From Candidatus Fermentibacter danicus (GTDB lineage Bacteria; Fermentibacterota; Fermentibacteria; Fermentibacterales; Fermentibacteraceae), in the NCBI GenBank assembly GCA_001618605.1, contig LKHC01000105.1, positions 75,250-139,249 of the forward strand: 64,000 bases of DNA. Reading direction: 5' to 3'. Position 1 is the stretch's first letter, and each line of letters starts with the position of its first letter. The position numbers were made by a program, and so were the translations under genes. The notes under the pieces are model-generated. The model was not told where the DNA came from, made no database searches, and was given only the letters and a program-made list of their open reading frames with translations. Shown piece after piece: positions 14,386 through 62,500 of this stretch.

Positions 14386-15057
14386 TCACTTCCTCGGCAG
14401 CCCGCCGCGCTCCATGAGCCGACGGAGCTTCTTCACGTCCTCCCACACAGGCCTCTTGAGCGCGGGAGTCCGCAGGAGAGCCGCCGGGTGGTACGTGACT
14501 ATCACCGGGATTCCCCGGTAGGAATGTTCCGAGTTCCTCGCCTGACCGATGGGGGCTCTGATGCCGAGGAGCCTCGATACGGCGGTCGCACCCAGCGCGA
14601 GTATGACCCCCGGCTGCATCGCGTCGATCTGTGCGTCGAGCACCCACGCGCAGGCCTCCACTTCGTCGGGCGAGGGCACCCTGTTTTCGGGAGGGCGGCA
14701 CTTGACCACGTTCGCGATGAAACAGGACTCCCTGTCGAGGCCGATCGAGGCGAGAATCCTGTCCAGAAGCTGCCCCGCCTTCCCCACGAACGGCCGGCCG
14801 GTCTCGTCCTCGCTGGCACCGGGCCCCTCGCCGACCACGAGAATGCCCGAACGAGGATCACCCTCGCCGAAGACCAGATTCCGTCTCGTGCCCGACAGCC
14901 TGCAGGACGAGCAGTCGCCCAGCTTCGCCCTCACGGCATCCATCGCAGTCTTCGCGCCGTCGGAAGAATCCGGCTCCCGGCCCCTTCGAGCGCGCACATC
15001 CCCGTCGGCGTCACTCCCGCTCCATCCGTCGGGCATCTTTCCACCGGGGAAATGCAC
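14386..15057 (-). CDS. Type 4 (iron-sulfur) uracil-DNA glycosylase
   Basis: A 223-residue family 4 UDG. The active-site block GEGPGASEDETGRPFVGKAGQLLD (key residues E, D, G-R-P-F) and the second motif TYHPAALLR are present. Four cysteines fit the 4Fe-4S cluster: C-x-x-C near residue 50, one in VVKCRPPEN and one in EVEACAW. Removes uracil from DNA. I kept GTG at 15057; an ATG seven codons later (15036), preceded by GGTGGAAAG, is an equally good start. The first 40 residues are low-complexity and variable. Confidence 0.94.
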   Translation of the reverse strand: MHFPGGKMPDGWSGSDADGDVRARRGREPDSSDGAKTAMDAVRAKLGDCSSCRLSGTRRNLVFGEGDPRSGILVVGEGPGASEDETGRPFVGKAGQLLDRILASIGLDRESCFIANVVKCRPPENRVPSPDEVEACAWVLDAQIDAMQPGVILALGATAVSRLLGIRAPIGQARNSEHSYRGIPVIVTYHPAALLRTPALKRPVWEDVKKLRRLMERGGLPRK

Positions 15058-15103: not shown

Positions 15104-16387
15104 TCAGACTCCTCGTGAGGGCGGGCGGCCCAGGGAGGAGACGATCATCTCCGCCACGAACCGCTTCGAACCCTCGGGGATTTCGACATCTTCGCGCCCT
15201 GCGCGGATGAGGACGCCCGAATCCGCATCGGAATCCATGCCGGAGCCGGGGAGGTCGCCGAAGTTGAGGAACGAGGCGAAAGCGCCCTTGGACGACATCT
15301 TCCTCCGGGCGCGTTCCAGCGCGATGTCCCTGTCGCCGAACTCGAGGCTGAAGGAGAGGAGCGGGCAGAGGCCGGAAACGGACGCGGAGACGTCCTCGAC
15401 CTGTTCGAGTTCGAGCATCATCCCGCCGCCGCTTCTGGGCAGCTTGCCGTCCATCCTCCGCACTGGTCTGAAATCGGCCACTGCGGCGGGCATCGCGAGG
15501 AGGTCGTGGCCTGGCGCGAGGTCGTGCAGAAGGGCGGAGAGCCCGGAGGCGTCCGTGAAGCGTTCGAGCGTAACCGCCCGGGGGGGAGCGGCCCTGCAGG
15601 GCCCGAGGAGAAGCGTGACGGAAGCGCCCGCAGCTCTGAAGGCGGAGGCGAGTTCGCAGCCCATCACCCCGCTGGACCGGTTGGAGAGGAATCTGACGTC
15701 GTCGATGTATTCCCTGGTGGGACCGGATGCTATGAGCACCCTCCGGCCCTCCCAGGAGACGGGAGGCGGCATCGAGGGATCGAGCGCCCTGGCCGCGGAC
15801 GGATATGGAATCCCGCCGATGCGCGACGCCTCGGCCTCCACGATCGAGAGGAGCCTCCTCGAGGCTTCGGGCAGCCCGTCGTTCTCGACGACGAAGTCGA
15901 AGGCGCCGATCCAGCGCATCTCGACGGAGGCCGCCGACATCCGTCTGGCCAGATCCTCTCCGCTCTCCGTGCCACGGCCTTCGAGCCTGCCAGCCAGGAC
16001 GCCGGCCGAGGGAGGGAGGACGAAGACCAGCACGGCACCCGGGATCGCCGCCCTTACGTTCCGGGCGCCCACGACGTCGATGTCCAGGATCACGGAACGG
16101 CCGGCTGCCAGTGTCTTCTCGACCCAGCCCCTGGACGTGCCGTACCTGTACCCGTGGACACGGGCCCATTCCAGGAAGAATCCCTCACGGACGAGTTCGT
16201 CGAATTCGTCGTCCGTCACGAAGTCATAGTCCCGGCCTTCCTTCTCGCCGCCCCTCGGCGGACGCGTGGTGGTGCTGACCGAGAACTCGAATTCCGGGGC
16301 TTCCGAAACGAGCCTCCTGGCGAGCGTCGTCTTCCCGGCGCCCGAGGGGCCGGCAAGGACCAGCAGCATCCCCGCCCTATTCGACAT
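15104..16387 (-). CDS. Guanylate kinase fused to phosphopantothenoylcysteine synthetase (CoaB) domain
   Basis: One uninterrupted 427-residue frame holds two enzymes. Residues 7-200 are guanylate kinase: P-loop AGPSGAGKTTLARRL, STTTRPPRGGEKEGRDYDF, and LDIDVVGARNVR. Residues 225-427 resemble the CoaB half of CoaBC: VLIASGPTREYIDDVRFLSNRSSGVMG, then MPAAVADFRP and a C-terminal KRFVAEMI. The flavin-dependent CoaC decarboxylase half is absent, and the usual KxKK-type stretch reads DGKLPRSGGG. gmk and coaBC are often neighbours with rpoZ between them; no rpoZ is seen here. ATG at 16387 overlaps the yicC stop. Confidence 0.92.
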   Translation of the reverse strand: MSNRAGMLLVLAGPSGAGKTTLARRLVSEAPEFEFSVSTTTRPPRGGEKEGRDYDFVTDDEFDELVREGFFLEWARVHGYRYGTSRGWVEKTLAAGRSVILDIDVVGARNVRAAIPGAVLVFVLPPSAGVLAGRLEGRGTESGEDLARRMSAASVEMRWIGAFDFVVENDGLPEASRRLLSIVEAEASRIGGIPYPSAARALDPSMPPPVSWEGRRVLIASGPTREYIDDVRFLSNRSSGVMGCELASAFRAAGASVTLLLGPCRAAPPRAVTLERFTDASGLSALLHDLAPGHDLLAMPAAVADFRPVRRMDGKLPRSGGGMMLELEQVEDVSASVSGLCPLLSFSLEFGDRDIALERARRKMSSKGAFASFLNFGDLPGSGMDSDADSGVLIRAGREDVEIPEGSKRFVAEMIVSSLGRPPSRGV

Positions 16388-17243
16388 TGGCCGCCTGCTC
16401 CCTCAGTGAGGAGAGTTCGTTCTTCATCTCGACCACGATCATGGTTCCGGCGGGAGTCTCCAGCTTGGCGCCGAGCGTGTTGATTTCGCGCTGGAGCTCC
16501 TGCAGCAGAAAGCCAAGCTTCCTGCCGGCATCAGGCTCGTCGGATGAGGCGAGATCGAGCGCGGAGGAGACATGGCATCCAAGCCTCTCCAGCTCCTCGC
16601 ACACATCCAGCCTGTCGGCCATGACGGCAAGCTCCTGGAGAAGCCTCTGCTCGTCCACCCTGGAGGAATCTCCCAGCAGTTTCCCGACTCTCTCCCTCAT
16701 CCTTTCGAATGCCTCGGGCACGGCCTCCTGCTGGATCGCCGCAACTTCCGAGGCGAGCGATCCGATCCTGGTGAGGTGCTCGGACATCAGGGCCGCGAGA
16801 GCCTCCCCTTCGGCCCTGCGCGAACGGGTGAGGTCGTCGAGGCAGGACGCCACGCATTCCAGGACAGGGCCCGCATCGGGAGCCTCCGGCTCGGAGGAGG
16901 CCCTGAGCACGCCGGGAAGCCTCATTAGATCCAGAGCGGAGATGCCGCCGTCGAGCCCGAGCCGGGCTGCGATCAGAGCCGCTGCCTCCGCCAGCTTCCC
17001 GGCCCTCTCGAAATCGACGGGAAGCGCATCTCCGGAGGAGCCGGCCGCTTCGACCGTGAGCCTCAGATCGATGCGGCCCCTCGAATACCTCTTCCTGATC
17101 TCGTCGCGTATGTCCTGTTCCATCGAGGCAAGCTGATCCGGGAGGCTCACGCTCACATGAAGACCCTTCTGGTTCACGCTGCGGGCCTCGGCGGCGATGC
17201 TGCAGCGGCCGGCCAGAACGACTGCTCTTCCGAATCCGGTCAT
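16377..17243 (-). CDS. YicC-family endoribonuclease
   Basis: A 288-residue YicC homologue: N-terminal MTGFGRA, then the EARSVNQKGLHVSV block, and a C-terminal DUF1732-type region KLGFLLQELQREINTLGAK with a final acidic EMKNELSSLREQ. The family includes RNA-cleaving enzymes acting on small RNAs. I start at ATG 17243 because family members open with SMTGFGR; GGAG lies 3 bases upstream, which is tight. It heads the long minus-strand run and sits upstream of gmk, the usual bacterial order. Confidence 0.93.
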   Translation of the reverse strand: MTGFGRAVVLAGRCSIAAEARSVNQKGLHVSVSLPDQLASMEQDIRDEIRKRYSRGRIDLRLTVEAAGSSGDALPVDFERAGKLAEAAALIAARLGLDGGISALDLMRLPGVLRASSEPEAPDAGPVLECVASCLDDLTRSRRAEGEALAALMSEHLTRIGSLASEVAAIQQEAVPEAFERMRERVGKLLGDSSRVDEQRLLQELAVMADRLDVCEELERLGCHVSSALDLASSDEPDAGRKLGFLLQELQREINTLGAKLETPAGTMIVVEMKNELSSLREQAANVE

Positions 17244-17275
17244 AGACTCCAGGGGGCACCTCCAGTGATGAGTCC

Positions 17276-17296
17276 GGAAGGTATATTCTACTTCCA
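17276..17296. promoter_or_regulatory. Shared divergent -10 region between yicC and rqcH
   Basis: The 74-base gap between the divergent genes holds TATATT on the plus strand (17282-17287); the same bases read TAGAAT on the minus strand (17285-17290). Each matches 5 of 6 of the sigma70 -10 consensus. No good -35 is visible on either side. Inferred from sequence only. Confidence 0.4.
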
Positions 17297-17317
17297 AAAC
17301 GGAGGGGACGGTACAGT

Positions 17318-31140: not shown

Positions 31141-33412
31141 CCGCTGCCTGGTCCTGCTGCTGGCCGCAGGGCTGGCTCTCGTCATCTACTGGCCGGTCTT
31201 CGTTTCGAACCGCCTCCCGGGCGGGGAGCTGAGCGACACCGTCCATCAGGGATACCCCTTCCTGTCCTACACCGCCTCGAGCCTTGCCGAGGGCCGTATT
31301 CCGCACTGGAACCCGTACATCTACTGCGGCATCCCATTCTTCTCCTCCTTCTCGGCGCCGGTGTTCTATCCCGTCCGCGGGCTACTTCTGCTGGCAGCCG
31401 GCCCGGAGGCGTCGGTGCGGTTCATCTGGCCTGTCCAGGCCTTCATCGCCGCGCTGTCGGCCTGGCTCTTCCTCGGATCCCTGGGAGTCTCCAGAGGCGG
31501 CAGGATGGTCGGAACGATCGCCTTCGCGGCAGGCGCCTGGGCCAACACCCTCTTCTACGCCGGACACACCAGCAAGATGGTGTCCTGGAGCTTTCTGCCG
31601 CTGCTCCTCTACGCCTGCGAGAGATGGTGGGGCACGCGGAGGGCGTGGTTCCTGTTCGTCGGAGGTTTCTGTCTCGGGATGCAGGCCCTCTCCAGCCATC
31701 CCCAGATGCTCCTCTACAGCGTCCTGGCGGCGACCGTCTGGCTGGCCTGGAGGTTCCTGGAGCGCCCCGGCGTGAGGAATGCGCTTGTCGCGGCCTCGGG
31801 CGTCGCCGCGATGACCCTGCTCGGGATGGGGCTCGGCGCAGTCCAGATGCTCCCGGGCTACAACTTTTCCAGAACCTCGACCCGGGGCGAGGATCTTTCG
31901 CTCTCGCAATCCGCAAGCTATTCGATGCCTCCCGAGGAGACCCTCGCGATGGCGTTCCCGCACCTGTTCGGATACCGGCACGGGTTCCCCGACAGCGAGG
32001 CGGGCGGCGGGCCCGTGTACTGGGGCAGGCTCGGCCTGCGGCTGTCCAGCGAGTTCACCGGAGTTTCGGTCCTGCTCCTGGCGGCGGTCGCCCTGCTGTC
32101 CCGCAGGACGCACAGGGGCATGGCGCTGGGTGCGGTGGCCCTGCTGGGCCTGCTGGTGTCCTGGGGGGGATACACCCCCCTTTACGGCATCCTCTACGAC
32201 ATCGTTCCGGTCTTCAGGAAGCTGAGGGCTCCGCACATGGCGGCGTTCCTCACGACTTCCGGAATATCGCTTCTCGCCGGCCCCGGCTTCGACTCCGTCG
32301 TATCCGGCGTGCGGGCCGGTCGCTGCTGGAAACCCATCGCCGCATGGGGCGCCCTCTGTCTCGTTCTGTTCGCCTTCTGCAGGCCCATCCTCTCCTCTGC
32401 CCAGGCCGGATGGTGGCGCAGGGCGGGAGCCTCTCCGTCAGCTTTCCCGGAGCTGGTCGACAGGAGGGTCGATCTGGCCTCCGGCGACTTCCTCAGAGCC
32501 GCTGCCGTCTCGGCATGCATGGCCGTCATAGTCTTCGCCGTCTCCCGGAAGAGGATCGGCCCGGGCTCCGCATGCCTCATGGTCTCGGCCGTCGCGGCCT
32601 TCGAACTCGTGCCCCTGGACAGGGACTTCCAGGTCTATCTGCCCCAGACGAGGATGGAAGACCTCCACCCGGAGCCGGAAGGGCTGCGGGAGGCGGTGGG
32701 CGGAGGGCGCATCTTCCCCGGTGGAAACCAGTTCGTCCCGTTCGGGATACGCTCCGTGACCGGCTATCATGCCGCCAGGACGCAGGCGGTCGACGCCATG
32801 CTGGCGGGCATCTCCTCCGGAGGTTTCACGGATGTCCGCTCCACTGCATTCACGGTGCTCGTCGACGGCGGCATGGTCGCCACCTACGACGATCTGGCCC
32901 GCAGGATCGCCTCCGACTCGACGGCCCCGGCCCTCCCGCCGGAGCTGACGGTTCCCATGCCGAGAGCCTTCATGCCCGGGGCGTGGGTTCAGGAGGGCGA
33001 CCCTTCGGCCTTCGGACTTCCGCCGGAGGTGGTCAGCACGGTATCCGGAGATCCGGGCATCCCTCAACCGGTCGGCGGCCGCGGCTCTGCGGAGATAGCG
33101 CGTGACGCGCCCGAACTGGTGGAGATCGCCGTGGAATCAGGCGAGCCCGGCCTTCTGGTCCTCGCCGACACCTGGCATCCACGCTGGGCTGTCCGGGTCG
33201 ACGGCGCGGAAACCCCGCTCCTGCGGGCCAACGGCTGGATGAGGGCCGTCGCCGTCCCGGCGGGCAGACATACCGTATGTTTTTCCTACGACACCTCCGA
33301 CTTCTCCACCGGACTTCTCCTGTCTGCGGTCTCCGCCTTCCTGACGACCGTCGCGGCAGCCTTCGAGCTGGCGTCCAGGAGGCGCAGGAAGTCTGGCGCC
33401 AGTGCGGCATGA
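31121..33412 (+). CDS. YfhO-like polytopic membrane protein (GT-C fold)
   Basis: A 763-residue integral membrane protein with about 12-13 helices and a C-terminal extracytoplasmic beta domain. Visible family traits: GGELSDTVHQGYPFLSYTAS with the luminal acidic motif after the first helix, HWNPYIYCGIPFF, and near the end VLADTWHPRWAVRVDG. YfhO proteins are linked to lipid-linked glycosyl transfer onto teichoic acids or proteins. TTG at 31121 has AAGGGAG 7 bases upstream and lies within the end of the UPF0104 gene. Confidence 0.88.
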   Translation: MAGKPSDRCLVLLLAAGLALVIYWPVFVSNRLPGGELSDTVHQGYPFLSYTASSLAEGRIPHWNPYIYCGIPFFSSFSAPVFYPVRGLLLLAAGPEASVRFIWPVQAFIAALSAWLFLGSLGVSRGGRMVGTIAFAAGAWANTLFYAGHTSKMVSWSFLPLLLYACERWWGTRRAWFLFVGGFCLGMQALSSHPQMLLYSVLAATVWLAWRFLERPGVRNALVAASGVAAMTLLGMGLGAVQMLPGYNFSRTSTRGEDLSLSQSASYSMPPEETLAMAFPHLFGYRHGFPDSEAGGGPVYWGRLGLRLSSEFTGVSVLLLAAVALLSRRTHRGMALGAVALLGLLVSWGGYTPLYGILYDIVPVFRKLRAPHMAAFLTTSGISLLAGPGFDSVVSGVRAGRCWKPIAAWGALCLVLFAFCRPILSSAQAGWWRRAGASPSAFPELVDRRVDLASGDFLRAAAVSACMAVIVFAVSRKRIGPGSACLMVSAVAAFELVPLDRDFQVYLPQTRMEDLHPEPEGLREAVGGGRIFPGGNQFVPFGIRSVTGYHAARTQAVDAMLAGISSGGFTDVRSTAFTVLVDGGMVATYDDLARRIASDSTAPALPPELTVPMPRAFMPGAWVQEGDPSAFGLPPEVVSTVSGDPGIPQPVGGRGSAEIARDAPELVEIAVESGEPGLLVLADTWHPRWAVRVDGAETPLLRANGWMRAVAVPAGRHTVCFSYDTSDFSTGLLLSAVSAFLTTVAAAFELASRRRRKSGASAA

Positions 33413-35504
33413 CACCCTCAACCGTCTGGGAGCGTGGTTCGGCTTTGCGCTTCTGGCGGGGGGAATCCTCTGGTTCATCTTCGGCCTGTGGCCGTCCTGG
33501 AAGGGGGATGTCGGCACGCTGGTCCCGCGCCTGGACTTCTCCGGACGGTGGCCGCTGCTCGTCTCCTCGGTTCTCTCGGCCCTCGCCGGCCTCTACTTCG
33601 CCCCGGCCCCCTGGGTCAGGCTGATAGGCGCATCAGGCGCCGGAGTTCCGCGGACCGCGCTCCGCAGGAACTGGTTCATCACCCAGACAGGCTCATACAT
33701 CCCCGGGCGTCTCTGGATGTTCCTCGGCAGGCTCGCCTTCCTCCGGTCGAGGGGAATGGGAACCGGCATCTCGCTGGTGTCGATGGCCTTCGAGAACATC
33801 TACCTGATGATCTCCGCCTGCCTGCTCTCGCTTGCGGTGATCCCGTTCTCCGGGGGAGCCGGGCTGCCTCCGGAGACCAGAGCCTACATCGCGGCGGCCT
33901 CCGCCGTCGTTCTGCTGGCCCTGGCGGCGCCGGGCATAAGAACCTTCCTGATCGAGAGGATGACCGGCCGCTTCGGCAGGGCCGCCGGCAGGTTGAGCAT
34001 CCCCCGGATCGGAGTCATGGACGGTCTCTACATGATTTCTACGGGGATGCTGTCCTGGGCTCTGCGGGGTTTCTCGCTCTTCCTGTGGTTCGACTTCGCC
34101 GGCCTGGGGGCCGGAGACGGGTTCGCAATGCTCGCCGCCTGTATAATCGTGATGCCGGTTTCGTGGCTCGTATCCCTGGTCTGGGTGTTCGTTCCCGGCG
34201 GGATAGGGGTGAGGGAGTCCTTCCAGGGCCTTGTCCTGGCTCCCTTTGTGGGCGGCATCGCGGTGGCGGTCACCGTGTCCCTGTGTCACAGGCTTCTCCT
34301 GATGCTCGTAGAGGCGTTCTACGCCCTGGAGGCTGCATTGTCCGAAGCATTCTCGCGCAGGCTGTCACAGATTCCGAAGATGGCGGGGCTGGCCGTGTCC
34401 GCCTTCTTCGCGCTTCCGGCCCGGTACGGCCTGTGCAGGCCGCCCGCCCCGATCAACGTCACGTTCTCCGTCACGCGAAGGTGCCAGTCCAGATGCGGCA
34501 CCTGCATGATCTGGAAGGCCCCGGAGCTGCCGGAACTGGATCTCGCCGCGATCGAAGCCATGTTCAGGTCGATCGGGAGAACCTTCTTCTTCAACATTTC
34601 CGGAGGCGAGCCATACCTCCGGAGCGACCTCCCCGGGATCGTGCGCCTGGCATGCCGGCACCTCCGCCCGGCCGTCATCCATGTACCCACGAACGCACTT
34701 ATGCCCGGCAGGATCGAGGAGACGACGCGGGAGATGCTCGAGATCATCCGCCGCGAGTCTCCGGGCACGGCCCTGACCGTGAAGCCGTCATTCGACGGAA
34801 TCGGGGCGAGGCATGACGAGATAAGAGGCGTGCCGGGCAACTTCGACAGGCTCCTCGACACGCTGGGAAGGCTCACAGCCCTCAGGAGGGAGTACCCCGG
34901 CCTCCATGTCGGAGTGGGGACCGTCATATCGAAGTTCAACTCCGGAGAGCTGCCGGAGGTGATCGAGTACGCCAGAGGCCTCGGAGTGGACACCTACATC
35001 AACGAGATCGCAGAGGAGCGGGAGGAGTTCTTCAACGTCGGCTCCAGGATCACGCCCGATCCCGCCACGTACGGGAACATAATGGAGGGCTTCCGCCGCG
35101 CGACGGTCGAAAAGATCAGGCACGCCCGGCTGCTCGGAAGGATCACCTCCGGGCTCAGGCTGGTGTACTACGACCTGGTTGTGAGGATCCTCCGCGAGAA
35201 GCGCCAGGTGATCCCCTGCTACGCCGGACTGCTCAACGTCCACATCAATGCGGACGGAGCCGTATGGCCCTGCGCCATCAGGGCCTATGCCGCCGAGATG
35301 GGCAGGGTCGGCCCGGAAGGCGATTTCGCTTCCGCATGGAACTCCCGGCGCGCCAGGGAGATTCGTCGTTCCATCCGCAGGGGCGAGTGCTGGTGTCCGC
35401 TGGCCAACCAGGCATACTCCAACATCCTGATGCACCCGCCCTCGCTGCTGAGGGCGGTCGTCGCAGGCCTCCGCAGATCAGGCGGGGGGAGGAGGAGGGA
35501 ATGA
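33402..35504 (+). CDS. UPF0104 membrane domain fused to radical SAM/SPASM enzyme
   Basis: One 700-residue frame with two modules. Residues 1-320 are an eight-helix UPF0104 domain (ITQTGSYIPGRLWMFLGRLA near 88, VFVPGGIGVRES near 265). Residues 345-560 are a radical SAM barrel with cluster motif C-QSR-C-GT-C near residue 363 and NISGGEP. The C-terminal part carries SPASM-like cysteines (CYAGLLNVHINADG, AVWPCAIR, GECWC). SPASM domains hold extra Fe-S clusters and usually modify peptides. The fusion would tether the chemistry to the membrane face. GTG at 33402 lies inside the end of the YfhO gene; the ribosome site is weak. I see no frameshift. Confidence 0.9.
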   Translation: MRHDTLNRLGAWFGFALLAGGILWFIFGLWPSWKGDVGTLVPRLDFSGRWPLLVSSVLSALAGLYFAPAPWVRLIGASGAGVPRTALRRNWFITQTGSYIPGRLWMFLGRLAFLRSRGMGTGISLVSMAFENIYLMISACLLSLAVIPFSGGAGLPPETRAYIAAASAVVLLALAAPGIRTFLIERMTGRFGRAAGRLSIPRIGVMDGLYMISTGMLSWALRGFSLFLWFDFAGLGAGDGFAMLAACIIVMPVSWLVSLVWVFVPGGIGVRESFQGLVLAPFVGGIAVAVTVSLCHRLLLMLVEAFYALEAALSEAFSRRLSQIPKMAGLAVSAFFALPARYGLCRPPAPINVTFSVTRRCQSRCGTCMIWKAPELPELDLAAIEAMFRSIGRTFFFNISGGEPYLRSDLPGIVRLACRHLRPAVIHVPTNALMPGRIEETTREMLEIIRRESPGTALTVKPSFDGIGARHDEIRGVPGNFDRLLDTLGRLTALRREYPGLHVGVGTVISKFNSGELPEVIEYARGLGVDTYINEIAEEREEFFNVGSRITPDPATYGNIMEGFRRATVEKIRHARLLGRITSGLRLVYYDLVVRILREKRQVIPCYAGLLNVHINADGAVWPCAIRAYAAEMGRVGPEGDFASAWNSRRAREIRRSIRRGECWCPLANQAYSNILMHPPSLLRAVVAGLRRSGGGRRRE

Positions 35505-36220
35505 AGCTGCTCAGGATGACGACGCACGAGTTCGTCAAGCTGGACGTGAGCTTGTGCTTCTGGCCGGTCGGAACCGTCGAGGCTCATGATGCAGGCCCCC
35601 TGGGGACCGACGTCATAGCCCCCGAGAAGCTGGCGGAGGATCTGGCGCCCGAATTCGGCGCCGTCCTGCTCCCGACCCTGCCCTTCGGGCTGGTCAACTC
35701 CCTGTCGGGGTATCCAGGCGGCATGTGGCTGCAGAGCGAGACCTACAGATCGATGATCGTGGAGCTGCTCGACTCGCTGTCCATCTCCGGCGTCGAGCGG
35801 GTGGTCGTTTTCAACGGCCACGGAGGCAACTCAAAAACCCTTTCGGAGGCCCTCTCCGAAGTCTGGAAGTCCTGCGGCGTGAAGACCGCACTGGTGGACT
35901 GGTGGGTGGTGGGGGACGACATCGCCCGCGAGGTGTTCGGCTCGTCTGCCGGACACGGCGGTTCAGACGAGCTGGCCCTCGTCCATGCCGCCATCCCGGA
36001 CTTCGTGCCGGAATGGGACGGCTCGGGCTCCTGGCTCGACCGCGAGGGAGTCAGGACTTACCCGGTGCCGGTCTGCTCCATCCGCTACTCCGACGGCGAG
36101 GCGAAGCCGTTCTCCGCAGAGGCGGCATCCGTCTACTACGGGAGGCTCAGGGACAGGGTCCGCGGGATCGTCTCCGACATCCTCGAAGGGTGGAGCGCGG
36201 GCGGCAGGCCTGACGAGTGA
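35501..36220 (+). CDS. Creatininase-family metal hydrolase
   Basis: A 239-residue amidohydrolase of the creatininase/MftE family. Metal and active-site blocks: FWPVGTVEAHDAGPLGTDVI (E, H, D), FNGHGGNSK near residue 107, and AGHGGSDELALVHA. The family includes creatininase, FAPy deformylase and MftE, the peptidase of mycofactocin maturation that acts beside a radical SAM enzyme. ATG at 35501 overlaps the radical SAM stop (ATGA) with GGAGGAGGGA upstream. It is the last gene of the run. Confidence 0.9.
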   Translation: MKLLRMTTHEFVKLDVSLCFWPVGTVEAHDAGPLGTDVIAPEKLAEDLAPEFGAVLLPTLPFGLVNSLSGYPGGMWLQSETYRSMIVELLDSLSISGVERVVVFNGHGGNSKTLSEALSEVWKSCGVKTALVDWWVVGDDIAREVFGSSAGHGGSDELALVHAAIPDFVPEWDGSGSWLDREGVRTYPVPVCSIRYSDGEAKPFSAEAASVYYGRLRDRVRGIVSDILEGWSAGGRPDE

Positions 36221-57323: not shown

Positions 57324-58533
57324 CGGCCATCCTTCCCGTCAGCCAGGCCCAGTAGAGGTTCCAACCCCCGACCGGACCGAAGGCGTCCAGAACCTCTCCG
57401 GCAAGGTGTAGCCCGGGGTGCAGCCTGCTTTCCATGCTCCCCGGATCGACCTCCTCCAGAGCGACGCCTCCTCCGGTGACCTCGGCTTCGTCCCATCCGC
57501 AGTGACCGCAGACAGGCAGGGGGAACCGGGTAAGAACCGCGAGGAGGGAAAGCCTCCCCGGCCTGTCCAGCTCTGCGAAACGGGCTTCCGGCCGTAAGCC
57601 CGCCCTCTCGAGGAGCAGCGCGGCCAGCCTCGACGGCAGATGCTCCCCCAGCGCTCCGAGGATTCTCCCCTTCCCCGACAACAGCGTCCTCTCCCACTCC
57701 GATGCATCCGGACGACCCCAGCGGACCAGGAGGGCGGCGGGCGCCTCCTCCGCCCCGGTGAAGGCGTGGGAGGCGTCCATCGTCACTGGGCCGCTGAAGC
57801 CGCGATGGGTGAAGAGGAGCGGGCCCTCCACGGTGAAGGGGCGTCCCTCGAACCGCGAGGATATCGCCGCATGTACGACGATGCCGGAGAGCCCGGCGAA
57901 ACCGGCATCCTCGGACCGGAGCGGGACCAGGGCCGGATATGCCTGCCTGACCCTGTGGCCGAGCCTCGCAGCCATTGTGAAGCCCCACCCTCCGCTTCCG
58001 GTGCCCGGCCATGACCTGCCGCCCGTGGCGATCATCACACTCCTGGCGTCCACCGTTCCCCCTCCCTCCAGGCGGACCTTCCATCGGCCGCCGGAAGGCT
58101 CGATGTCGATCACGCGGGATCGGAACATGAAGACGGCCCCTGCATCCGAGGCGATCCGCACGAGAGTGCGCACCACGGAGGCAGCCCCGTCGGTCGTGGA
58201 CGAGGCGAAGAGCTTGCCGGTCCCCTCCTCGGGTTCTGGCCTCACTCCGGCTTCCTCGAAGAACGAGCGTGCCAGCGAGGGGGACCATCTCCTGAGGATC
58301 TTGGCGAGGCTGTTCCTGGACGATGAGGTCACGTATGCGCCGGGATCGAAGTCGGCCGGCAGGATGTTGCACCGGCCGCCGCCCGTGAGGGAGAGCTTCG
58401 CCCCGGGCCTGTCGTTAAGATCGAGCACGACTGTGGACATACCGGCCCGAGCGCCGGTAGCGGCGGCCATGAGCCCCGAGGCGCCCGCGCCTATGATGGC
58501 GAGATCGAACGGGCCCTCCCGGGGGCTAATCAC
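57313..58533 (-). CDS. FAD-dependent oxidoreductase, HI0933/BaiN (YhiN) family
   Basis: A 406-residue flavoprotein. FAD-binding GAGASGLMAAATGARAG at the N-terminus, NDRPGAKLSLTGGGRCN near residue 45 (family hallmark), MIATGGRSWPGTGS, and C-terminal TGGGVALEEVDPGSMES then GEVLDAFGPVGGWNLYWAW. The function of most members is unclear; BaiN was proposed in bile acid dehydroxylation. GTG 58533 overlaps the adaptor stop by 8 bases, so it is the last gene of the RND operon. Confidence 0.92.
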   Translation of the reverse strand: MISPREGPFDLAIIGAGASGLMAAATGARAGMSTVVLDLNDRPGAKLSLTGGGRCNILPADFDPGAYVTSSSRNSLAKILRRWSPSLARSFFEEAGVRPEPEEGTGKLFASSTTDGAASVVRTLVRIASDAGAVFMFRSRVIDIEPSGGRWKVRLEGGGTVDARSVMIATGGRSWPGTGSGGWGFTMAARLGHRVRQAYPALVPLRSEDAGFAGLSGIVVHAAISSRFEGRPFTVEGPLLFTHRGFSGPVTMDASHAFTGAEEAPAALLVRWGRPDASEWERTLLSGKGRILGALGEHLPSRLAALLLERAGLRPEARFAELDRPGRLSLLAVLTRFPLPVCGHCGWDEAEVTGGGVALEEVDPGSMESRLHPGLHLAGEVLDAFGPVGGWNLYWAWLTGRMAGRA

Positions 58534-59566
58534 CCACCACTGCCACAGGAGCGTTGTGCGCGAGGGAGTAGTGGCCGCTGATTATGACCTGCTCGCCCTC
58601 GGACACCCCGTCCGTCACCGCGATCAGGCCCCTGCCGTACCCGGCCGTCGTTACGTCGCGCCAGTCCGCCCGACCGTCGGACACGACGAACACCATCTCG
58701 TCGCCGTCACGCACCAGGACAGCCTCCTCGGGGATGAGCAGGAGATCGGGCATCTCGGCCGTGACCACCTCGATCCTGGCTGTCGCGCCGGGCCTCAGAC
58801 CCTCTACCGGGGGCAGGGCGACCGTGACCCTTCCCGAGCGGGTGGACGGATTTATTACCGGGGAGACTGCGGAAACCGTGCCTGCGATAGTGGTGTCTCC
58901 GAGGGACGGAACGGTCACGTAGGCCCTGGCCCCGACGATGCAGAGGGCCAGATCCCGCTCGTCCAGATCGATCTCGGCCTGCAGCGCATCTATGTCCACG
59001 ACCGAGCCGAGCAGAGTTCCCGGGTACACCGTCATCCCCTCCCGGGCGAGGACTCCGGACACCACTCCGTCGAAGCCGGCGGTGAGGGCGGCGTTGCCGT
59101 ACTGAGTCCTGGCACGCGCCAGGTCCGCCTCGGCCTGCAGCAGCCCGGTGGTGCTGCGGAGCATCTCGCTCCGTTCCTCGGTCATTTCGCCCTGGTAGTT
59201 CGAAGTCTCGAAGTCGTACACGGCCTGAGCCGACCTGTAGCGGCTCTGGGCGTTCTGAAGGTCGGCGGCCTGAGCGCCGGCGGCGATCCTGAAGACGGTC
59301 TGGCCCCTCGAAACCGGCACCCCCTCGCCCGAAGGCGCCAGCGCGACAAGGCCCTGGATCTGGGAAACCAGCTCCTGCGTCCTCGCGGAGCTGATCCTGC
59401 CGGTGGCCTCGACGACCTGGAACAGTGTATCCCTCGCGATGGTCACGGCCCCGACGGGGAGCGGAGACGGTTCGACGGCCCCGGCCTCCTCCTCCGCGGC
59501 CTTTCCGCAGGCGCAGGCCAGCATTGTCAGTAGAACCGGCACGAAGAGCCTTTTCATCCCGGTCAT
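58526..59566 (-). CDS. RND efflux periplasmic adaptor (lipoprotein)
   Basis: A 346-residue membrane fusion protein. Lipoprotein signal KRLFVPVLLTMLACACGK, a barrel-sandwich hybrid (LVALAPSGEGVPVSRGQTVFR, LTAGFDGVVSGVLAREGMTVYPG), a short helical hairpin and a beta-barrel (VTVPSLGDTTIAGTVSAV). ATG at 59566 overlaps the pump stop (ATGA), with AAGGAGGG; a second ATG at 59557 is possible. It works with the two RND pump genes upstream. No outer-membrane channel is encoded nearby; the TolC at 6039 could serve. Confidence 0.92.
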   Translation of the reverse strand: MTGMKRLFVPVLLTMLACACGKAAEEEAGAVEPSPLPVGAVTIARDTLFQVVEATGRISSARTQELVSQIQGLVALAPSGEGVPVSRGQTVFRIAAGAQAADLQNAQSRYRSAQAVYDFETSNYQGEMTEERSEMLRSTTGLLQAEADLARARTQYGNAALTAGFDGVVSGVLAREGMTVYPGTLLGSVVDIDALQAEIDLDERDLALCIVGARAYVTVPSLGDTTIAGTVSAVSPVINPSTRSGRVTVALPPVEGLRPGATARIEVVTAEMPDLLLIPEEAVLVRDGDEMVFVVSDGRADWRDVTTAGYGRGLIAVTDGVSEGEQVIISGHYSLAHNAPVAVVGD

Positions 59567-62500
59567 TCCCTCCTTGTCGTAAGCTGTATGAGCGATGGCA
59601 GGGCCACGAGCACGAGCAGGGTCGAAGTGGCCATTCCCGCCACCACTGTGAACGAAAGGGTGCTCCACAGGTCGTCGGAGCCGGCCACCGGCCAGATGAC
59701 GAGCGGGAGCATTCCCACGACGGTCGTGAGACTCGTCTGCATCACCGGGCGGAGCCTTTCCTTCACGGCCAGGTCGAGCGACTCGCTGGTGCCCGTACCC
59801 CTGTTCCGGTGCCGGAGGAAGCAGTCCACCAGGAGGATCGAGTTGTTGACGGCGATTCCGACCAGGAACACGCTGCCCACGTAGGCCTGGGGGGTGAAGA
59901 CCTTCCCGAAGGCCCAGAAGCCGATGACTACGCCTATCAGCGCCATGGGTATTACGGCGAGAACCCACAGCGGCGCCGTGAAGGACTCGTAGAGCACTGC
60001 GGTCACCGCAAAGACCGCGATGATCGCCATGAGGACCAGGAGGTTGAGGTCGGTGCCGGCATCCTCTTCCCGGAGCCATCTCGGCGCCCATGTCGTGTCC
60101 TCGTAGACCCTGTATCCGTCCGGAAGCTCCAGATTCTCGATCAGAGTACGCCTGAAACGGGCACCCATCCTCTCGGCCCCCATGAATGTGTAGGCGATGG
60201 TCCTCATGTACTCGCCCTGATCGCGGTCTATGTAGCCCTGGACGGTGGTCGTGTCCAGCTCGACAATATCCCCGAGCCTCACGGAACCGCCGCCGGCGGT
60301 CCTGATCCGGCTGTCGAAAACCTCCGCCATTCCCGGGTTGCGCTCCCCCGCGAGCCTGAGGCCGAGATCGAGCCGTTTGTCCCCTATCTGGATCCCGCCC
60401 CCGTAGCTGCCCGGCAGGCTGTAGCGGAATGCCGCTAGGAGCTGAACCGGGTTGAGCCCGAGGTCCGCAAGCTCGCGGCGGTCGAATTCGATGGAAAGCT
60501 GTGACCGGTCCGCCATCATCCGGTTCCAGTCGATGGCGACCTCCGCGATCCTGGGATGGCGTTCCATCAGGGAGGCGATCGACGAGGCGATGTTTCTGAG
60601 CCCCTCGTAGTCGTATCCCCGGAGTTCGATGGTCTGCATCATCCCCGCGGAAGACGTGCTGCGCCAGTACCCCTGCGGGCTGATGCCGCCGGCGTAGATG
60701 CCCTGGATGCCGCCGATCGTAGAGGCGTGGGCCATCACCTCGGCCTCGGTGTTCAGGGCGAGGCCGCTCGAAAGGGAGGATTCGGAGCAGATGGCGATGA
60801 TGGTGGCCCTCTCCCCGGTAACGAAGGTCCGGGTCGATTCGATCCCGTCCCTCCCGACCAGGATCGCCTCGAATCCCCGCGTGGCCGTGTCCACCACGTC
60901 CTGCGGGGTCCCGGGGGGGAACTGCATCTGGACCACGATGTTCTCGCGCTCGAACGAGAACCCCCAGTACCGCCCCCTGTCCAGCTTCGTGAAGAAGACC
61001 CAGACGGAGAGCGCGATCAGCAGGATCACGAACGACATCGGGAGCCACGGCTTGTGATGGAGGCGGGTTATCGCCCGGGCCATCCCTACGTCCCACCTCC
61101 TCTCCCTCGTCCAGCTCCCGTCCCTCCAGTGGCCGGCGAGCGAGGGAACGAGAGTGAGGCAGACGAGGTAGGACGAGAGCAGCGTGGCGACCATCGTGAA
61201 GGCGAACGGCCTGTAGTAGAGCCTCAGAATCCCTTCGCTCGCGAGCAGCGGGACGAATGCGACGAGCGTCGTCAGGACGCCGCCCAGGATGGGCAGGGCC
61301 ACTTCCTTCGCCCCCAGCCTGGCCGCCTCGATCGGATCCATGCCCTGCCGCCTGCGGAAGGCGATGGCATCCATCACCACCACCGCCCCGTCGACCAGGA
61401 GTCCGAAGGCCACTGCCAGGGCGCTCAGGGTCAGAACGTTTACGGTGTACCCGGCGAGATAGACCGCCGTTATGGAGAGGGCCGCCGAGAACAGGATCGA
61501 GCTGAGGATCAGCATGTTGCCCCGGATGCCCGGGTTGAGCAGGAGCAGGACGGCCATGATGGCGGCCAGGCATACGACGCCTCTCCACGAGAGGGCGGCC
61601 AGGTTCTTCCTGATCTGCTCGGTGCCGTCCTCGATGAGTTCCAGTTCGGCGCCCTCCGGGAGGTTCGCGCGGATGTCCTCCACCGCGGCCATTACCCTGT
61701 CGGCTACGCGGACCGCGTTGCTGCCTGGCACCCTGTCGACCTGGACCATCACCTGGTCCAGCCCGTTGTACCTGAAGACCGTGTGCTGGGTCTCGTCGAA
61801 CAACTGGGAGATGTCGAGGGCCACATCGCCCAGCGTCACGAAGCGGCCGCCCCGGACGGCCACGACGAGTTTCGCCAGGTCGTCCAGATCGCGCGGGACC
61901 GTGGTCACGCGGAGCACGGCCGAGCGGCCGGTGGAATCGATTACGATGCCAGCGTTGCGATCGACGATGCCCGCCTCGAGGACGGACATCACCTCCGGCA
62001 GTGTCAGATCCAGTTCGCGGAGCGCCTGCGTATCTATGTCGATGACTACCTGTTCTGCTCCGAGGCCCTGCACGTCCACGACTCCGACCTCGTCGACCCT
62101 CTCCAGCGCGGGGACGATCTCTTCCTCCGCCAGCCTCTTCAGCTCCTGGGCATCCGCGCCGGCCAGCGTGAAAACGAGGAAGTCCTCGCTGTCCATCTCC
62201 TCGGGAAGCACAGGAGTGACGCTGGACTTCGAGACACCCGGAGGGAAGTGCTCCCACAGGAAGGAGATCCGCTCGGTCAGTTCCATGGATGCGACATCCA
62301 TGTCCGTACCCTTCCGGAACGACACGGTAACGCTGCTGGAGCCGGCCTGGGAGCGGGAGGACACCTCCTCCACCCCCTCCACCTGTCTCGCCGCCTCCTC
62401 GATCGGTCTCGTGATCTCTTCGCAGACGGCCTCGGGGTTGGCTCCCGGCCATGTCGTAAACACGCTGAGCTTCGGCAGCTCGATATCCGGGGTGCCCTCG

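Follow-up and report, generated by a model that had tools for sequence, protein, structure and literature searches.

Why would a cell carry guanylate kinase and a coenzyme A enzyme on one polypeptide, and where does it keep the decarboxylase that usually precedes the second of these? According to PMC7794376, CoaB and CoaC are joined as CoaBC in the vast majority of prokaryotes. The window analysed here, a stretch of 64,000 nucleotides from a draft genome (2.01 Mb in 168 contigs, 92.6% complete), holds a gene in which the partner of CoaB is guanylate kinase, or Gmk. Table 1 gives the layout of this gene and of its two neighbours.

Table 1. The fused gene, its domains and the flanking genes, in positions of the window.
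Feature	Position	Strand	Remarks
yicC-like endoribonuclease gene	16377..17297	minus	upstream; stop overlaps gmk::coaB start by 11 bases
gmk::coaB fused gene, 427 aa	15104..16387	minus	ATG 16387, stop 15104-15106; no internal stop
guanylate kinase domain, residues 8-185	15833..16366	minus	PF00625, TIGR03263, fold match 3tr0
interdomain linker, residues 186-211	15755..15832	minus	alignment of relatives and structure model
CoaB (phosphopantothenate-cysteine ligase, PPCS) domain, residues 212-427	15107..15754	minus	PF04127, PDB alignments, fold match 1u7z
family 4 uracil-DNA glycosylase gene	14386..15057	minus	46 bases downstream; TIGR00758 over cut-off

The Pfam model PF00625 (Guanylate_kin) matches residues 8-185 of the protein with an E value of 2.3e-44 (151.7 bits against a cut-off of 25.2), and the Gmk model TIGR03263 recognises a full-length domain at 207.6 bits, for a cut-off of 160.45. 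A domain search of the last 200 or so residues returns CoaB: PF04127 (DFP, the CoaB half) matches residues 212-393 (E 1.8e-37; 129.4 bits, cut-off 22), and residues 212-418 align to positions 184-390 of the CoaBC profile TIGR00521. In these profile searches, the fusion protein has neither a PF02441 match nor a match to the N-terminal half of TIGR00521. A sequence-only reading of this locus had seen one frame encoding guanylate kinase followed by the CoaB half of CoaBC, without the CoaC half; the profiles agree on each of these points, with both Pfam domains complete in the 427 amino acid frame.

The fusion is not particular to this genome. Our sample of its phylum consists of 42 genomes, all of one taxonomic order, and profile and sequence searches place Gmk and CoaB in one open frame in 40 of them. 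The match spans both domains in 38 genomes, including that of the window; in genomes G037 and G027 the match is cut, yet the junction is crossed. Genome G020 has a Gmk fragment only, and G038 has no match. We extracted 39 fusion frames, leaving out G027 and taking none from G020 and G038, and those of the relatives are 43-72% identical to the window protein. That a frameshift in assembly or sequencing had merged two separate genes, as might happen to common neighbours such as gmk and coaB in a draft of so many contigs, is ruled out by the identical joined frame of 40 out of 42 genomes, with no reported internal stop. The Gmk-CoaB fusion is real and conserved, a new domain architecture of single origin built from two well-known enzymes. 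Since PF04127 has one match per genome in 40 of the 42 genomes, and no second full Gmk was found across the 42, no Gmk and no CoaB are recognised in these genomes apart from the two halves of the fusion.

The surroundings of the gene are conserved as well, in the order yicC - gmk::coaB - udg4 - dnaB - radA. Neighbourhoods were read in 20 of the 40 genomes with the fusion and, for coaC, in 20 of the 39 genomes with a coaC match, plus the window genome as query. A yicC match lies directly upstream of the fusion in 19 of the 20 relatives examined, the exception being G036, and a uracil-DNA glycosylase gene directly downstream in all 20. It is followed by dnaB in 18 of the 20 neighbourhoods, the contigs fetched for G018 and G021 ending inside the glycosylase gene. 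The gene rpoZ (PF01192), which usually sits between gmk and coaBC, is matched in 39 of the 42 genomes, 38 of them over the cut-off, and lies on a separate contig in the window genome. One frame of the sample is unusual: in G041 (L033), the fused frame extends to 644 amino acids, CoaB similarity stopping at about residue 395 and giving way to uracil-DNA glycosylase. This run-on is probably due to an indel in a draft that is 71% complete and 6% contaminated.

If CoaC is absent from the fused protein, it is not absent from the organism, as the description of the fusion as lacking CoaC might have been taken to mean. The search for a standalone coaC elsewhere in the genome, which the earlier reading had proposed, finds it beside coaX: PF02441 has just one match in the window genome, a separate CoaC of 188 residues (G000:C8), in the cluster nadC-coaX-coaC-mtnA, directly behind coaX and before mtnA. 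PF02441 is also matched in 39 of the 42 genomes of the phylum, and the three misses (G001, G035 and G040) are genomes 61-77% complete; a missing CoaC is thereby ruled out. In the neighbourhoods read, mtnA follows coaC in 20 cases out of 20, and coaX precedes it in 19, the contig of G019 ending just before coaC. The standalone CoaC covers positions 5-176 of TIGR00521, so that together with the CoaB of the fusion it accounts for nearly the whole CoaBC profile.

The CoaC of the window genome carries PHITL, PSMNSRMW and CGASGEGR; the roles of the catalytic histidine, of PXMNXXMW and of the cysteine motif of CoaC are those given in PMC9604783. Across the genomes, that of the window included, the patterns PH..L and CG..G.GR are present in 38 of 38 sequences, and PxMNxxMW in 37. 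The CoaC of G006 (L157) deviates at the conserved N of this last motif, where it has H. CoaE, CoaD and CoaX were found in the window genome, and, with CoaB in the fusion and CoaC, CoaD and CoaE as separate proteins, the pathway from pantothenate to coenzyme A is complete.

Are both halves of the fusion still enzymes? Through the PDB alignment, from which residue equivalence is deduced, sites R206, N210, D279, K289, F308 and E311 of E. coli CoaB correspond to R232, N236, D305, K315, F346 and E349 of the fusion; among them, we take N210, K289, F308 and E311 to have functional roles in the E. coli enzyme. Each of the six sites is invariant in the 38 fusions counted, a count that omits G030, whose GSTRE was missed by the search pattern and whose R and N sites are present. 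The same sites are invariant in 35 comparison CoaBs, except for E311, found in 33. Functional roles for R207 and D281 of M. smegmatis CoaB are described in PMC7794376, as is a K-X-K-K loop that contacts the triphosphate of CTP in the mycobacterial enzyme; the loop is said there to be conserved in bacteria at large, exceptions being few, and is hence not defining. In the fusions, it reads K-x-x-R: the first lysine is present in 38 of 38, the middle one in 9, and the last site is an arginine in all 38, as it is in 9 of the 35 comparison CoaBs. On the Gmk side, the motifs P-loop, TTRxxR, DYxF, LDID and GA, to which we assign their customary roles, are kept in the relatives (37 sequences counted, from an alignment of 39).

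A monomer model of the fusion, predicted by AlphaFold from an alignment that included 5 rows for Gmk and 10 for CoaB, has a mean pLDDT of 84.8 and a pTM of 0.54. Its Gmk half is matched to Coxiella Gmk, 3tr0, with a Z score of 27.7 (193 residues aligned, rmsd 2.0), and its CoaB half to E. coli PPCS, 1u7z, with a Z score of 26.7 (213 aligned, rmsd 2.9). One could read the altered K-X-K-K loop as the mark of a half that has degenerated into a non-catalytic remnant, kept for structure. We hold this to be very improbable, given that no other Gmk or CoaB is recognised in these genomes, that conservation extends to the six CoaB sites and to the motif columns of Gmk, and that it is of similar degree in the two domains, mean pairwise identity among 19 sequences less than 75% identical being 57% in Gmk and 54% in CoaB.

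Could CoaB also be made on its own, from a start inside the fused gene? Among the 34 of the 39 fusion genes that were read, there is no conserved internal start with a ribosome-site-like motif ahead of CoaB. Two of these genes, those of G015 and G029, contain no start codon at all within the 45 codons that precede the GPT motif of CoaB, so a free CoaB begun in the linker cannot be the general product, and on the 34 genes read we reject independent translation from an internal start.

In our judgement, it is quite probable that the protein is a bifunctional enzyme with two independent active sites, that CoaC acts as a separate protein, and that the arrangement arose once, by the splitting of CoaBC and the joining of its CoaB half to gmk. 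The N-terminal domain would be the guanylate kinase of the cell, converting ATP and GMP into ADP and GDP. The C-terminal domain would convert 4'-phosphopantothenate, CTP and cysteine into phosphopantothenoylcysteine, CMP and PPi; the former would then be decarboxylated by the separate CoaC, and CoaD and CoaE would complete coenzyme A. The two active sites would work independently on a short tether. This independence is an assumption, and we infer both the activity of each half and the absence of mutual regulation.

What the two reactions have in common is not a substrate. CMP is a product of CoaB, GMP is a substrate of Gmk, and a cytidylate kinase, Cmk, is found in 37 of the 42 genomes of the phylum and in all 24 of the better ones; no shared substrate thus explains the fusion, and the idea that Gmk recycles the CMP of CoaB for want of a cytidylate kinase is ruled out. 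The sequence-only reading had the protein linking GMP phosphorylation with coenzyme A synthesis: the link stands as a physical one, with 1:1 synthesis enforced; a link through shared substrate or regulation would be speculative, and CMP has a kinase of its own.

How rare is this arrangement, and where did it come from? In 343 diverse genomes outside the phylum, no row spans both halves among the matches listed (down to an E value of about 4e-43). The best outside Gmk match among them is held by G373, and in the 249 genomes of its own phylum, three of which belong to both sets, no row spans both halves either among the matches listed (to about 6e-44). We also checked 33 chosen Gmk matches that lie in long frames, 13 from the set of 343 and 20 from the phylum of G373; in none of them is CoaB part of the same ORF. 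A pattern scan, which finds close relatives only, returned 51 named loci and no fused locus; both genes are present in 26 of these loci and fused in none, in keeping with the earlier remark that gmk and coaB are common neighbours and seldom one protein. A Gmk-CoaB fusion was not found in the titles and abstract openings of the literature searched. In 25 of the 51 loci, nearly all from Planctomycetota (L042-L059, L063, L073 and others), coaC and coaB are separate ORFs, often near gmk. The parting of CoaC and CoaB is thus not unique; it is the joining of CoaB to Gmk that stands out.

In a tree of 17 of the 39 extracted fusions and 35 other sequences, the fused CoaBs form one clade with support 100/100. 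This clade adjoins rows of intact CoaBC (moderate support, 83/90) and lies outside the main clade of split Planctomycetota genes. The CoaCs of the phylum also form one clade, with support 100/99, in a tree of 17 of 38 sequences and 28 others whose deep branches are weakly placed, and this clade is likewise apart from the main Planctomycetota split genes. The frequency of separate coaC and coaB in Planctomycetota, often with gmk nearby, might suggest that CoaB was derived from such an already split lineage rather than from the phylum's own CoaBC. We consider this rather improbable, in view of the position of the fused CoaB beside intact CoaBC and of the CoaC tree, which also separates the two groups, within the limits of its weak deep branches.

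The simplest account is the splitting of a CoaBC and the fusion to a neighbouring gmk. In it, an ancestral CoaBC would have been split once, before the phylum diversified; coaC would have come to lie behind coaX, and the CoaB part would have been joined to its frequent neighbour gmk, the order of these events being conjectural. PMC9973325 reports that gmk and rpoZ are syntenic in 18,302 of 23,517 genomes, and lists coaBC or dfp as the following gene in some.

It remains to consider the linker. Measured from reference position 185 to the invariant W212, it is 27 residues long in 34 of 37 fusions, the others having 26 (two proteins) or 25 (one protein); linker and conservation counts are without G041, whose frame runs on, and G037, whose start is cut. 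Its sequence is variable, with a mean pairwise identity of about 26% at residues 186-207 in the 19 sequences less than 75% identical, and the AlphaFold confidence is below 50 at residues 192-207. Were it a loose spacer, one would expect greater variation in length, so a structural constraint is possible, and the near-fixed length could reflect ordered packing in an oligomer.

Such packing is at the heart of another explanation, in which Gmk replaces CoaC as the N-terminal scaffold for oligomerisation. Oligomers of Gmk would pair the CoaB domains into dimers, and CoaB activity would depend on Gmk and might respond to GMP, GDP or an alarmone bound there. E. coli Gmk was crystallised as an oligomer, judging by PDB titles, and the near-constant linker would suit a scaffold. 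PMC7794376 bears on the question in both directions: the CoaB of M. smegmatis alone neither dimerises nor is active, and the active site of CoaB borrows a loop from the partner protomer, yet the CoaB of E. coli dimerises and functions without CoaC, which weakens the case. With a linker of variable sequence and low confidence, and a monomer model whose halves, at its pTM, have no defined packing, we regard this explanation as unlikely. Its strongest form, in which Gmk would take the place of CoaC at the core of the CoaB assembly and the guanine nucleotide state would directly control cysteine ligation in coenzyme A synthesis, is slightly less likely still. If true, it would amount to a checkpoint from purines to coenzyme A, through binding of GMP, GDP or an alarmone at Gmk; we know of no checkpoint of this kind in other bacteria.

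Neither half is unusual in mechanism under the preferred reading, in which one chain carries two enzymes that act independently: the architecture is new and the enzymes are known. With respect to the bacterial CoaBC (Dfp, TIGR00521), the CoaB half aligns, keeps the catalytic sites and is expected to use CTP; it differs by its N-terminal partner, by a CoaC encoded in a separate gene, and by its K-x-x-R loop. With respect to Gmk (TIGR03263), the domain is complete, over the cut-off, and has the main motifs and the fold, but it is followed by CoaB on the same chain, and rpoZ is not next to the gene. The split systems, be they the Planctomycetota loci or the coaB_strep and coaC_strep families of NCBIfam, also have CoaB and CoaC on separate chains, but no CoaB-Gmk fusion, and the CoaB described here is not of the streptococcal type, scoring 36.2 bits with TIGR02114 against a cut-off of 217.2. 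The order gmk-rpoZ-coaBC shares with our locus the proximity of gmk and coaB; in ours, however, these two are merged into a single gene, and rpoZ and coaC lie at other places in the genome.

Two essential housekeeping enzymes of different pathways, on one chain across the sampled phylum, can serve as a phylum-level marker. They also offer a naturally occurring case in which to ask if CoaB requires CoaC in order to assemble or to channel its substrate, and bear on the unexplained conservation of the order gmk-rpoZ(-coaBC). On a practical level, annotation may record the fused gene as gmk alone, in which case CoaB would look missing.

Finally, the rest of the window calls for some minor observations. 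Rfam has no match anywhere in the 64,000 nucleotides; a lone tRNA-like match of ARAGORN at 35861-35956, on the plus strand and with a two-base anticodon, is likely false. At 33402-35504 on the plus strand, one ORF has a weak LPG_synthase_TM match, below the cut-off, followed by Radical_SAM and SPASM, an unusual combination. At 58526-62452 on the minus strand, adjoining an AcrB-type ORF, an ORF of 1308 amino acids has its sole Pfam matches, to HlyD, at residues 1014-1224, near the C-terminus: its start may have been placed too early, or it may have a large N-terminal part without Pfam match.
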